Shown here: piece by piece, positions 3,755-36,582 of the stretch
Position numbering within the stretch: the stretch's first letter is position 1
Layout of the letters: each line of letters starts with the position of its first letter
Source: Thermoanaerobaculia bacterium
Lineage (GTDB): Bacteria; Acidobacteriota; Thermoanaerobaculia; UBA5066; DATFVB01
Length of the DNA: 36,687 bases
NCBI GenBank assembly: GCA_035260525.1
Contig: DATFVB010000161.1
Coordinates: 1 to 36,687 of the forward strand
Direction: 5' to 3'
The notes under the pieces: generated by a model
The model's database searches: none
The model's input: only the letters and a program-made list of their open reading frames with translations
What the model was told of the DNA's origin: nothing
Position numbers and translations under genes: made by a program

Positions 3755-4285
3755 TCAGAGCTCGAAGAGCCCCTCCGGCGGATCGAGCACGATCTCTCGG
3801 CGTTCCCGGGACACCTCGCGGACGATCGGCCGCACGAAGGGGACGAGATGTTGCGCGCCCCCGCGGACGACGCGCAGGAAACACGTCGGCCCGTGCCTCT
3901 CGAACGCCTCGGCGCGGCCGAGCGGGGCCCCGGTCGGGTCGACGCAGGAGAACGTCGCGACCTCGTCGTCGAAGAGGAAGTCCTCGGCGGGCCGCTCGAG
4001 CACCGAGCGGTCGACCGTCAGGTCGAGGCCGGCGAGCTCTTCGACGTCCTCGAGGCGTTGCCGGCCGGCGAACTTCACGAGCAGGTGCGTGCCGTGCGGG
4101 CGGATCGACGCGACCTCGAGCCGGATCGCGCGCCCGCCGCCGACGGCGGAAAGAACCGCTCCCGGCCGGATCTCGCCGGGAAAGTCGCCGACCGGGCGAA
4201 CGGCGATCTCGCCGCGCAGGCCGTGCGGTCGCTTGAGCTCCCCGACGCGGCGGCGCGAATCAGCCGCGGATCCGGACGAGGACAC
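3755..4285 (-). CDS. rimM: Ribosome maturation factor RimM
   Basis: Assembly factor that binds S19 and helps mature the head of the 30S subunit. The 176-residue protein has the N-terminal RimM domain with the RPHGLRGEI signature near residues 19-27 and a C-terminal PRC-barrel ending in the family motif with PPEGL. The start used is GTG at 4285, overlapping the khpA end by 26 nt; no ATG, GTG or TTG lies between it and the conserved core, so this start is essentially forced. Position between khpA and trmD matches the usual operon. Confidence 0.95.
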   Translation of the reverse strand: MSSSGSAADSRRRVGELKRPHGLRGEIAVRPVGDFPGEIRPGAVLSAVGGGRAIRLEVASIRPHGTHLLVKFAGRQRLEDVEELAGLDLTVDRSVLERPAEDFLFDDEVATFSCVDPTGAPLGRAEAFERHGPTCFLRVVRGGAQHLVPFVRPIVREVSRERREIVLDPPEGLFEL

Positions 4286-4490
4286 GCTGGTTGCGCTTTC
4301 GTCCCGCGGCGGAGGCGAAGGCGCGCAGCGCGCGCGCCGTCCGGCCCTCCCGGCCGATCACGCGGCCCAGGTCCTCGGGCGAGAGCGTGACGTCGAGCGT
4401 GACCGCTCCCCCCTCTTCGCTCTCCGTCACCGACACGTCCTCGGGACGCGTCACGAGCGCGCGGGCGACCGTCTCGACGAGATCCTTCAC
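4260..4490 (-). CDS. khpA: KH-domain RNA-binding protein KhpA
   Basis: A 76-residue single KH-domain protein (former YlqC/UPF0109 family). The core GRVIGREGRTARALR around residues 42-56 contains the GxxG RNA-contact loop. In other bacteria KhpA pairs with the Jag/KhpB protein to bind many RNAs; no khpB is in this window. The start is GTG at 4490, overlapping the rpsP stop as GTGA, so the two are translationally coupled. The rpsP-khpA-rimM order is widely conserved. Confidence 0.93.
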   Translation of the reverse strand: MKDLVETVARALVTRPEDVSVTESEEGGAVTLDVTLSPEDLGRVIGREGRTARALRAFASAAGRKRNQRVLVRIRG

Positions 4491-16372: not shown

Positions 16373-16378
16373 CTTTCG

Positions 16379-16384
16379 ATTATG
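16379..16384 (-). promoter_or_regulatory. -10 box for a leaderless homocysteine methyltransferase mRNA
   Basis: CATAAT on the minus strand, five of six bases of the consensus, then 6 nt, then the ATG at 16372. Confidence 0.55.
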
Positions 16385-16468
16385 CCGCGTCGTGTGGTCT
16401 AGCAATTCCCTTTGCCCACGGGACTTCTCGAAAGGTTCGCCGACGAGGCGCGGCGAGACGTGCTGGAA

Positions 16469-16532
16469 GACGGGTCCGGCGAGACCGGCCGGCGGTGAAG
16501 GCGTACAAAAACGTACGTCGAGCCGCCGGCGG
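16469..16532 (+). repeat. Dispersed quasi-palindromic element, copy 1
   Basis: Ordered blocks: GACGGG (16469), CCGGCCGGCG (16485), CGTAC-AAAAAC-GTACG (16502-16517) and GCCGCCGGCGG (16522-16532). The same four blocks occur in the same order and orientation at 36359-36426 with different spacer sequences. It lies in the 215-nt gap between ettA and the homocysteine methyltransferase gene. Confidence 0.7.
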
Positions 16533-16577
16533 GCTCGCCGGATCCCGTATAACGGCGCGTATCGTCCGCGCCTGCCG

Positions 16578-16602
16578 CTCACCCGCGCTACGCGCGGGTG
16601 AG
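16578..16602 (-). terminator. Perfect hairpin overlapping the ettA stop codon
   Basis: A 10-bp perfect stem (CTCACCCGCG at 16578-16587 and its complement at 16593-16602) with a 5-nt loop that covers the TAG at 16588-16590. There is no T tract on either strand, so it is not a classical intrinsic terminator; it may stall RNA polymerase or protect the mRNA 3' end. Confidence 0.4.
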
Positions 16603-24652: not shown

Positions 24653-25204
24653 CTACTTCGGCCCGTTCGTCCGATCGATCACGCGCGCCACGCCCTTGGT
24701 TCCCTTCGCCGTGTCGAGCGCGGTCGCGTGGATGGCGGCCGTCGGAAGGCTCCCGCGGAGCGTGACGATGCCGCCCGAGGCGTGGACCTCGATCTTGAAC
24801 GCGTTCTCGCCGACCTGCTCGAAGAGCCGACCCTTGACGCGCGCCTCGAGCAGCGAATCGTCCAGGTTCCTCTTCGCTTTCCGGGTCGCCGTTCTCGTCC
24901 TCGTCGCCGGACCGTTCCCGAGGGCGATCCGGTCGTCGACGCTGCCCACTCCCTTGACTCCCGCCGCGACCGCCTTCGCCCCCGCCTGCGTCGCCTTCTC
25001 GTCCACCGCGCCGGAGAGGACGACGTTCGCTCCGTTCACGTCGATCTTGATCCCGAGCGCGTCGGTCCCGAACTTCTCGAGGAGCGCCGTCCGCACCTTG
25101 AGGTTCGTCACCGCGTCGTCGAGGGTCGCCGCCGCCGGGAGCGCCCCCGCGATCCCGAGGACGAGCCCGAAAACCATCAAGACCGTAAGCCGTCGATTTC
25201 GCAT
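24653..25204 (-). CDS. Periplasmic protein with two BON domains
   Basis: A 183-residue exported protein. Residues 1-26 form a signal peptide (VLMVFGLVLGIAGALPAAA) without a lipobox. Two BON (OsmY/nodulation) domains follow, about 28-98 and 113-180, each with the characteristic hydrophobic-Gly-x-V-x-L-x-G strand (ANVVLSGAVD and GIVTLRGSLP), joined by a basic Arg/Thr linker. BON domains are thought to bind phospholipids and are common in osmotic-stress proteins such as OsmY. A GGAGAG Shine-Dalgarno precedes the ATG at 25204. Upstream lies a 359-nt hairpin-rich region. Confidence 0.88.
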   Translation of the reverse strand: MRNRRLTVLMVFGLVLGIAGALPAAATLDDAVTNLKVRTALLEKFGTDALGIKIDVNGANVVLSGAVDEKATQAGAKAVAAGVKGVGSVDDRIALGNGPATRTRTATRKAKRNLDDSLLEARVKGRLFEQVGENAFKIEVHASGGIVTLRGSLPTAAIHATALDTAKGTKGVARVIDRTNGPK

Positions 25205-25563
25205 CTCTGTCTCTCCTGCGGGGCAAATCTAGCGAAGGCCGTGCCATTCCGTCGCGGAAGCGGGCTCGGGGAACGGGAGCACGTGACGGCTCCGCGGCTC
25301 GTCGAACAAGCGACTCGACCGCGGAGCCGCCACCCCCTCGCCTTCGCTTCCGCTCCCGCGGCGCAAGTCGTCTCGCGCAGCGATCGCGCGAGACTTCGTC
25401 GCGCCGCGACGAGGCCCGCGCACCCCTCCATCGTTGATGGCCGCATTGTCGCAGCTTGGAGAGCGGAGGGGGATCGGCGCGCTCAGCGCTGGAGACGCTT
25501 CCGCGAACGCTCTCCGCGGTGCGATGAGCACCGGGTCCCGGCAAAGCTGCGCCACCGGTTGCG
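25205..25563. other. Hairpin-rich intergenic region, no gene seen
   Basis: Between two minus-strand genes there is no convincing coding frame. Instead there are several perfect inverted repeats: GGCTCCGCGG paired with CCGCGGAGCC across a 21-nt loop (about 25291-25331), GTCTCGCGC / GCGCGAGAC with a 7-nt loop (25370-25394), CGTCGCG-C-CGCGACG just after it, and CGGTGC / GCACCG near 25520. It must also hold the promoter of the BON gene. It could be a degenerate repetitive element or a structured RNA. Confidence 0.6.
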
Positions 25564-25800
25564 CTACGCCTTCGGCGCCGGAGGCGGGAGATCGCGCGCC
25601 GGACATTCCGATTCGAAGCCGACCTTGCCGTGCGTCGAATCGCAGAAGGGCTTGTTCGCCGAGCGTCCGCAACGGCAAAGGGAAATTGCCGTCCGCCCGC
25701 CCAGGCCGAACCGCCGGCCTTCCGCGTCCACGATCAGAATGTTTTCCCCTTCCACCCGGATGGGGCCGTTCTTGCGGATCAGGATCTTCGTTTCGGCCAT
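25564..25800 (-). CDS. CDGSH-type iron-sulfur protein
   Basis: A 78-residue soluble protein of the mitoNEET/CISD family, which bind a redox-active 2Fe-2S cluster through three Cys and one His. The motif is complete: C42-x-C44, a Ser, a Pro, then C53-D and H57, in the stretch LCRCGRSANKPFCDSTH. The glycine of the CDGSH name is replaced by serine. The N-terminal strand-rich part (ILIRKNGPIRVEGENILIV) is typical of bacterial members. Physiological partner unknown. No Shine-Dalgarno; TAGTTT lies 6 nt before the ATG, compatible with a leaderless transcript. Confidence 0.9.
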   Translation of the reverse strand: MAETKILIRKNGPIRVEGENILIVDAEGRRFGLGGRTAISLCRCGRSANKPFCDSTHGKVGFESECPARDLPPPAPKA

Positions 25801-25806
25801 GACCCG

Positions 25807-25812
25807 AAACTA
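25807..25812 (-). promoter_or_regulatory. Possible -10 box for a leaderless CDGSH mRNA
   Basis: TAGTTT on the minus strand, 6 nt before the ATG at 25800. The weakest member of the leaderless set. Confidence 0.35.
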
Positions 25813-25877
25813 ACACACGCGCTCGTGTCAGCGGCGCCGCCCTGCGACATGCGCGTTTTCATGCATCGCCGCGACAC

Positions 25878-35907: not shown

Positions 35908-36330
35908 ATGGCCAGCGTCAACAAAGTGATTCTCATCGGGCATCTCGGAGCGGACCCGGAGGTCTCGACGACGCAGGGAGGGACCGCGCTCGCGAAGTTC
36001 CGCCTCGCGACGACGGAGACCTGGAAGGACCGTTCGACCGGAGAGCGCCAGGAACGCACCGAGTGGCATTCGATCGTCGCCTGGGACAAGCTCGCCCAGA
36101 TCTGCGGGGAGTATCTCCACAAGGGCAAGATGGTCTACGTCGAGGGGAGCCTGCAGACGCGCTCCTGGGACGACCAGAACGGTCAGAAGCGGTACAAGAC
36201 CGAGATCAAGGCGAACAACGTCCTGATGCTCTCGCCCCGGGTCGAAGGCGCGGCGCGCGGCGGCGGCGAGTTCCCGCATGCGGTGGCGCCGGCGGGTGTT
36301 CCCGACGAAGACGACGACGTCCCTTTCTAG
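35908..36330 (+). CDS. ssb: Single-stranded DNA-binding protein
   Basis: OB-fold protein that coats single-stranded DNA during replication, repair and recombination, acting as a tetramer. The 140 residues begin [17 protein letters not shown] and contain the conserved [31 protein letters not shown] core. The linker is short (about 25 residues) compared with E. coli SSB, and the acidic tip reads DEDDDVPF, the interaction peptide for repair enzymes. AAGGAGG stands ~8 nt before the ATG. Monocistronic as far as seen. Confidence 0.97.
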
Positions 36331-36358
36331 ATAGCAGGCGCGGCGATACATCGAGCCG

Positions 36359-36426
36359 GACGGGCGCGTTCCGGCCGGCGCCGCCCTCGCCGTACGTTTC
36401 AGTACGACTCGGGACGCCGCCGGCGG
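36359..36426 (+). repeat. Dispersed quasi-palindromic element, copy 2
   Basis: GACGGG (36359), CCGGCCGGCG (36371), CGTAC-GTTTCA-GTACG (36391-36406) and GCCGCCGGCGG (36416-36426), the same ordered blocks as at 16469-16532. It follows the ssb stop by 29 nt. Confidence 0.7.
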
Positions 36427-36582
36427 ACCGCATTCCGTCGGGCTCGCGTCTCGCCGCGCCTCGACCTTCCGCCATGGTCATCATCTCTGTCGTCCCGAAC
36501 GAATGTGAGAGATCCCGGTAGCGGCGCTCTCCTAACGCATCTTGCTCAAGCGCGGCGCGATGAGCCGCGTTACGTTCTCTCC
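36427..36582. other. Intergenic remainder after ssb
   Basis: No convincing gene. A block near 36477-36521 (conceptual translation VIISVVPNECERSR on the plus strand) looks like the dispersed repeat that is often mis-annotated as short ORFs in acidobacterial and other genomes; this resemblance is from memory. A GCGCGGCGCG stretch follows. Confidence 0.4.

Follow-up and report, generated by a model that had tools for sequence, protein, structure and literature searches.

The 36,687-nt stretch of Thermoanaerobaculia DNA analysed here (hereafter the window) contains, at 25205-25563, a gap lying between the start of a gene for a BON-domain protein and the stop of a gene for a CDGSH iron-sulphur protein. 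The question raised by this locus is whether the hairpins that crowd the gap belong to a structured RNA regulating the BON gene or to a composite of repetitive elements, both of which had been proposed in a previous reading made without database searches. The relevant features are listed below, R1 being the name given to the repeat.

24653-25204, minus strand: BON-domain protein gene (PF04972, E 5.7e-21), starting at 25204 as an open reading frame and at 25177 according to the gene finder
25249-25417, plus strand: R1 copy of 168-169 bp with tail type A, the fourth best of 86 model matches (36-copy alignment)
25249-25253, plus strand: unpaired left tag CCGTC, forming a sharp left boundary (alignment, junctions and consensus structure)
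25254-25262, plus strand: closing stem of domain 1, 5′ arm GCGGAAGCG, perfectly paired with 25345-25353
25288-25297, plus strand: central stem of domain 1 (helix 3), 5′ arm GGCTCCGCGG
25319-25328, plus strand: central stem of domain 1 (helix 3), 3′ arm CCGCGGAGCC
25345-25353, plus strand: closing stem of domain 1, 3′ arm CGCTTCCGC, perfectly paired with 25254-25262
25358-25407, plus strand: domain 2, the exchangeable tail hairpin of type A, GCGGCGC...GTCTCGCGC/GCGCGAGAC...GCGCCGC (from the fold)
25481-25524, no strand assigned: recurring fragments, tail-C-like GCGCTCAGCGCTGGA..., matched by up to five other fetched loci
25564-25800, minus strand: CDGSH iron-sulphur protein gene (PF09360, E 1.3e-16), whose stop borders the gap

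The perfect inverted repeats described by the sequence-only reading were borne out. In addition to the 9-bp perfect pair GCGGAAGCG/CGCTTCCGC and the 10-bp pair GGCTCCGCGG/CCGCGGAGCC, the gap contains two further 9-bp perfect inverted repeats (GTCTCGCGC, 25370-25378, with GCGCGAGAC, 25386-25394; and ACCGCGGAG, 25318-25326, with CTCCGCGGT, 25512-25520), and an 11-bp perfect pair at longer range (TCGCGGAAGCG, 25252-25262, with CGCTTCCGCGA, 25496-25506). That the gap holds no coding frame was likewise confirmed, only the BON and CDGSH genes being called here by a codon-usage gene finder seeded with five frames of the window (training on the longest open reading frames had called antisense frames). 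Folding of 25249-25417 gave -99.9 kcal/mol (z -4.0), a value equalled by none of 200 shuffles, and the opposite strand folded with a z of -4.9. Strong structure was limited to this segment, since scanning windows from 25416 and 25501 were ordinary (z -0.4 and -0.8, respectively). The hairpin density had been called unlike that of other gaps. This is only partly the case: the 170-nt scanning window at 25246 ranked third by z among 430 over the whole stretch, but stronger structure was found in two windows that span other gaps, the one at 16406 (z -8.3; gap 16373-16587) and the one at 36296 (z -5.0; gap behind 36330), and both contain stretches that recur elsewhere in the genome.

Dispersal, anatomy and pairing of R1

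A DNA search of the source genome (3.8 Mb in 368 contigs) with 25150-25620 returned 46 matches including the window itself, and apart from the window itself and one match reaching 25477 all of them lay within 25243-25431. Thirty-seven of the 46 aligned copies passed a length and end filter, and 36 were kept for covariation analysis after one (L035) had been omitted by hand. A covariance model built from these 36 full-length copies, realigned, gave 86 hits in the source genome with E ≤ 0.001 (150 of 12,524 first-look candidates scored), two of which overlap a called gene. Independently of the model, a left-end pattern with up to three mismatches found 86 sites, versus none for the reversed control. 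Fifteen of these sites were outside the model's list, and among the 14 that were read most diverge soon after the left end (the one on contig C69 meets the contig end, and that on C20 resembles a chance match). The unit is sharply delimited on the left: averaged over copies, 34-64 other loci match inside R1, versus about 3-8 in the 50 nt upstream, while downstream 13 match on average and the number falls. The second answer offered by the previous reading, that of a composite of repetitive elements, is therefore supported, as 25249-25417 is dispersed and 25481-25524 recurs in up to five other fetched loci, with weak matches in L035 and L042. The same reading had held that blocks scattered through the genome would point to a repeat; such scatter is what was found, though structure is conserved too. 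The hairpins are thus genuine, but they are those of one copy of a dispersed genomic repeat, not of a control RNA specific to BON.

The taxonomic range of R1 is narrow. Among 40 related genomes examined (71 candidates scored per genome), including the source genome, the model matched the one other genome searched from the same genus, that of a sister species (18 matches), and none of the 38 others. A stricter class-wide scan (19 candidates scored per genome) placed R1 in 2 of 148 genomes, both from one genus out of 69, and the remaining 146 genomes had no match. A covariance search across related genomes, as proposed by the previous reading, recovered R1 in two genomes of one genus. The exact 22-nt left end occurred twice, in a Clostridia MAG and a Corynebacterium, in a one-genome-per-species collection of 84,980 species that may omit records very near the source genome; the model gave no copy at either site, and no exact left-end match was present in a collection of viral contigs. 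A known Rfam RNA family was rejected, since the whole window had no match at the gathering score and R1 only chance-level ones (E 0.8-5). We recognised no description of R1 in the literature, which is not proof of its absence.

When oriented by its conserved left end, CCGTCGC, R1 consists of two domains. Domain 1 is branched and closed by GCGGGAGC pairing with GCTCCCGC. Its closing stem (helix 1) comprises 8 pairs, beginning with G-C and then C-G, encloses 80-90 nt, and is paired in 98.6% of cells over the 36 copies. The central stem (helix 3) is variable yet mostly paired, showing the most two-sided changes (7 of 13 pairs) with 93.8% of cells paired. Domain 2, of type A in the window, is exchanged in other copies for type B (GCATCGC...GCGATGC), a small number having type C ends instead, and most copies finish with a GCGAWGGGCCC-like 3′ end. 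Full copies are mostly 163-176 bp long, while 11 measure 239-249 bp, and 10 of these 11 long matches carry the GGGAGAA motif of a further palindrome in their apical loop. The long copies include those on contigs C316, C278, C152, C175 (at 25165), C189, C237, C39 (at 2230), C57, C339 and C250; the extra palindrome, CCGGC..CTTCTCCCGCCGGGAGAAG, sits in the apical loop of long copies and of the copy at C205:9249, and the tails are of type A or B in those read fully (C278, C189, C39, C152 and C205).

The paired arms of R1 are maintained across copies. Standard pairs filled 96.4% of cells over 36 copies, compared with 87.9% in shuffled controls (none of 500 as high) and 36.6-52.5% in slid ones, and two-sided changes affected 17 of 40 pairs, versus 11.2 after shuffling. 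The covariation score was 0.252, against 0.102 for shuffled alignments (reached in 0 of 500) and 0.028-0.085 for slid ones. This covariation demonstrates a conserved hairpin; it is not proof that the RNA is what counts.

G·T pairs were taken as a sign of selection on the RNA strand, that is, they should outnumber A·C mispairs if plus-strand RNA is selected. For this comparison the copies were sorted by tail, 60 of 69 full-length ones being assigned and 9 being of neither type, while three matched both patterns. Over all pairs the type-B set showed 87 G·T versus 37 A·C, but 57 of the 87 fell in three tail columns that were judged to be mis-registered (2-nt bulge), so domain 1 alone was counted. 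There, 60 copies contained 25 G·T versus 27 A·C, giving no sign of strand-specific RNA selection. The G·T and A·C counts in domain 1 were 15 and 11 in the 15 clean type-A copies and 23 and 23 in the 45 type-B copies, and by tail set with overlap (three copies in both sets) they were 9 versus 13 and 23 versus 23. Because G·T pairs do not exceed A·C mispairs, the covariation does not show RNA to be the selected molecule. Hairpin-templated DNA repair could also keep the arms complementary without selection.

Placement behind stop codons and comparison with the sister species

Placement was counted for the 81 of 86 copies whose left end could be recognised; in the sister species it was counted for 14 of 18 matches, the four weakest being omitted. 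The upstream gene was known for 74 of the 81 copies, and lay on the same strand in 56 cases and on the other strand in 18. The left end of R1 shows a strong preference for a position 0-3 nt past a stop codon, in the sense orientation: it lies there in 23 of the 56 same-strand copies, and in 7 of 10 in the sister species. When both neighbours were known, 21 of 51 copies lay within 0-3 nt of the stop versus about 1.3 expected under uniform placement in the rest of the gap, an expectation that uses today's gap lengths, other repeats included, and is therefore somewhat low; by our own estimate, an ancestral gap of 40 nt would still give only about 10% of stop-abutting copies. Eleven extra left ends were counted apart; four of them were on the same strand as the gene, and two of these four lay no more than 3 nt from a stop. 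Abutment of a gene by the 3′ end of R1 was seen in 1 of 42 convergent and none of 30 unidirectional arrangements, and abutment of a divergent start by the left end in 1 of 18. The 23 abutting sites use TGA 10, TAG 7 and TAA 6 times, and the called genes TGA 162, TAG 92 and TAA 28 times. Some copies start 14-18 nt past the stop, from which a short fragment of another repeat, GGCGCGGCGAT, separates them (C213 and C194; L107 and L115 in the sister species).

This placement, found in both species, together with the retention of paired arms and the similar location of a second repeat family (P, described below) in both genomes, would be explained if R1 were a portable 3′-UTR element under RNA selection, in which case the upstream transcript would end in R1, which would set mRNA stability or slow terminating ribosomes. 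We regard this as possible, if on balance unlikely: G·T pairs are no commoner than A·C mispairs in domain 1, 18 of 74 copies lie on the strand opposite to the upstream gene, and many sites are empty in the sister species. A more specific version, in which R1 is a portable, mobile two-hairpin module whose left end is placed, or kept by selection, exactly at stops and which tunes both termination and mRNA decay, with P following the same rule, is doubtful. If a 3′-UTR module it were, dozens of genes in the genus would share one structured 3′ end. More generally, if the position at stop codons reflected targeting, R1 would follow an unusual insertion rule, whereas if it reflected selection, many genes would have a common structured 3′ end.

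The copy in the window does not follow this pattern. Its left end points toward the BON start, from whose codon it is separated by 44 nt (open reading frame start) or 71 nt (gene finder start), there is no same-strand stop codon ahead of the left end, and by the conserved orientation of R1 the copy is antisense to BON. A cis-regulatory structured RNA, i.e. a 5′ leader or attenuator of BON, would fit with the location of R1 upstream of that gene and with its strong folding on either strand. Against this, R1 has 86 matches and lies next to many other genes, no Rfam family matches it at the gathering score, and a simple scan revealed no promoter- or terminator-like site; moreover, the mispairs in domain 1 are about equally G·T and A·C. 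Nor does the homologous site favour it: the sister species has the same left junction and the first ~38 nt of R1, which then stops, while the BON gene is conserved. Such partial loss with BON kept is not the behaviour of a needed BON regulator. The BON leader RNA, as R1 is dispersed and its sister copy truncated, was rejected as highly improbable, and the corresponding claim of the sequence-only reading is unsupported. Judging from the shared junction, the insertion by BON most likely predates both species and was later partly lost in the sister species while BON stayed. A strongly folded, covarying intergenic stretch may thus be a repeat and not a gene's regulatory RNA, which is a warning for annotation.

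The neighbouring CDGSH gene is inverted between the two species (window 25561-25819 versus 4064-4322 of sister contig C266), the aligned blocks being separated by 17 and 19 bp, and the BON and PQQ-like genes around it keep their orientation.

The two genomes differ by about 20% in aligned loci (identity mostly 78-88%), and 9 of 11 syntenic locus pairs were read. R1 was present in the source genome and absent from the sister in 6 of the 9 syntenic gaps (L041, L072, L067, L071, L073 and L026), the sister gap at L026 being longer and filled with other DNA. The left junction is common to both species at L101, R1 is found in the same gap of both at L084, and a weak R1 subfamily is common to both at L103. 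Presence or absence of R1 thus differs between sister species at syntenic gaps, movement itself not having been seen; because of the ~20% divergence, no exact empty site could be read. The empty gaps could also be explained by losses in the sister species, not gains in the source genome. Among type-B copies the closest pair is C314:163-330 of the source genome and L107 of the sister, which are 95.2% identical, a similarity above that of most loci aligned between the species.

Possible mobility and relation to known repeats

Like MITEs, R1 is short, non-coding and present in many copies, and it forms a discrete unit whose left end is sharp. A MITE would be a non-autonomous transposon derived from some known insertion sequence and would show terminal inverted repeats together with a target duplication. 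The ends of R1, when compared, are not inverted repeats of each other, and no significant target-site duplication was detected in 57 copies (flanks shared at least 5 nt in 3 of 57, and the null reached the observed value in 44 of 300). Furthermore, most of the 14 extra left ends read out of 15 soon diverge, and no transposase was noticed behind them by reading alone. A MITE is therefore an improbable description.

No transposase gene with ends matching R1 was found in the 368-contig assembly, whose fragmentation may break up an autonomous element. That genome has one gene for a Y1 transposase, a 361-aa open reading frame with a Y1_Tnp domain and a DnaA-type helix-turn-helix, located within 5451-7042 of L106 (contig C147; 6060-7019 according to the gene finder). 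It could be proposed that R1 is a REP-type element mobilised by this TnpA-REP-like enzyme, as the Y1 gene is present in the source genome and none was found in the sister species, where R1 matches number 18 instead of 86. However, a correlation over two genomes is weak, and the gene is flanked by inverted repeats of its own with GGGGTCAGATCTG (L106 6035-6063 and 7014-7042), which contain GGGGTCAG and CGGGGTCAGATCTG and are unrelated to R1. It adjoins copies of repeat family P, and its contig carries no R1 match. With its own inverted repeats, no R1 nearby, and a sister species that holds R1 without Y1, the Y1 transposase was rejected as the partner of R1; we rate such a partnership as quite unlikely. 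The smaller number of R1 matches in the sister fits with an enzyme acting in trans, a comparison that comprises two genomes.

Among known systems, R1 is most like REP/BIME elements, yet it falls outside the defined tagged families. As with these elements, R1 is dispersed, extragenic, palindromic, heterogeneous and mosaic with other repeats, and it lies mostly behind genes, often a few nt past the stop. It differs in size and architecture (~168 bp and two domains, versus a single hairpin of 20-40 bp), in having no linked transposase found, and in that its left end abuts the stop. According to Di Nocera et al. (2013; PMC3733652), REPs are tagged GTAG or CGTC and lie mostly close behind ORFs; in the genomes plotted there they are near ORF 3′ ends, the convergent ones being mostly less than 20 bp away. 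CGTC REPs, described there as having no dedicated transposase, a stem of 8-9 bp that opens with two A-T pairs, a 4-5 nt loop and a short unpaired tail, mostly CCA, resemble R1 in the unpaired CGTC followed by an 8-bp stem and in the missing dedicated transposase. In R1, by contrast, the stem encloses 80-90 nt forming a branched domain, its first two positions are not A-T pairs, and there is no CCA tail. GTAG REPs are mobilised by RAYTs and are defined by the GTAG tag and a RAYT gene between copies of the same repeat; R1 has neither. The arrangement of the Y1 transposase between inverted repeats with GGGGTCAG is reminiscent of the TIRYT/TIRtron systems of the same paper (PMC3733652), but R1 bears no relation to these repeats and occurs in the sister species without Y1.

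The best reading is that R1 is a new, unusually large, genus-restricted REP/BIME-like element. Very probably it is a non-autonomous dispersed palindromic repeat of ~168 bp, akin to REP/BIME elements but larger, and restricted to one genus as far as searched. It consists of a fixed left end, CCGTC, a branched, covarying domain 1, and a second hairpin swapped between copies. Its spread, past or present, would have occurred as a hairpin DNA unit moved by a putative enzyme in trans, and copies abutting stops may persist as the 3′ side of genes would tolerate R1. Alternatively, transcribed R1 hairpins could act in the 3′ UTR in the manner reported for E. coli REPs, by ribosome stalling and protection of the mRNA end. 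PMC12306157, citing Liang et al. (2015), reports ribosome stalling by E. coli REPs that lie no more than 15 nt from a stop, and by its own count 446 of 4,072 REPs are that close. The copy next to BON would be an old insertion common to the sister species, its place beside that gene being incidental. Large two-domain palindromic repeats that start at stops would widen the range of REP-like elements, for which a short hairpin is the usual form.

The window also carries a member of the other dispersed family, P, at 36330-36465 on the plus strand, ~135 bp forming one long hairpin (z -5.3 at 36330-36470). With 40 candidates scored per genome, P matches 55 times in the source genome and 49 times in the sister, counts that include fragments as well as an antisense self-match; another seven genomes of the order gave short matches only (25-50 nt). 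Among fetched loci, P lies within 6 nt behind a same-strand stop in 14 of 32 and 13 of 21 copies, and within 20 nt in 24 of 32 and 19 of 21, respectively. The stop at those 27 sites within 6 nt is TAG in 19, compared with 92 of 282 called genes. P also forms short tandem arrays with a spacing of ~170-215 bp on contigs C135, C147, C79, C289 and C94 of the source genome. A further stretch, 16438-16573, lies where structure peaks in the whole 36.7-kb window (z -8.3 at 16406), and as many as 15 other fetched loci contain it. It has short stretches in common with P, 17 nt being identical and 24 nt matching at 83%, and on the basis of this similarity it may be a relative of P.
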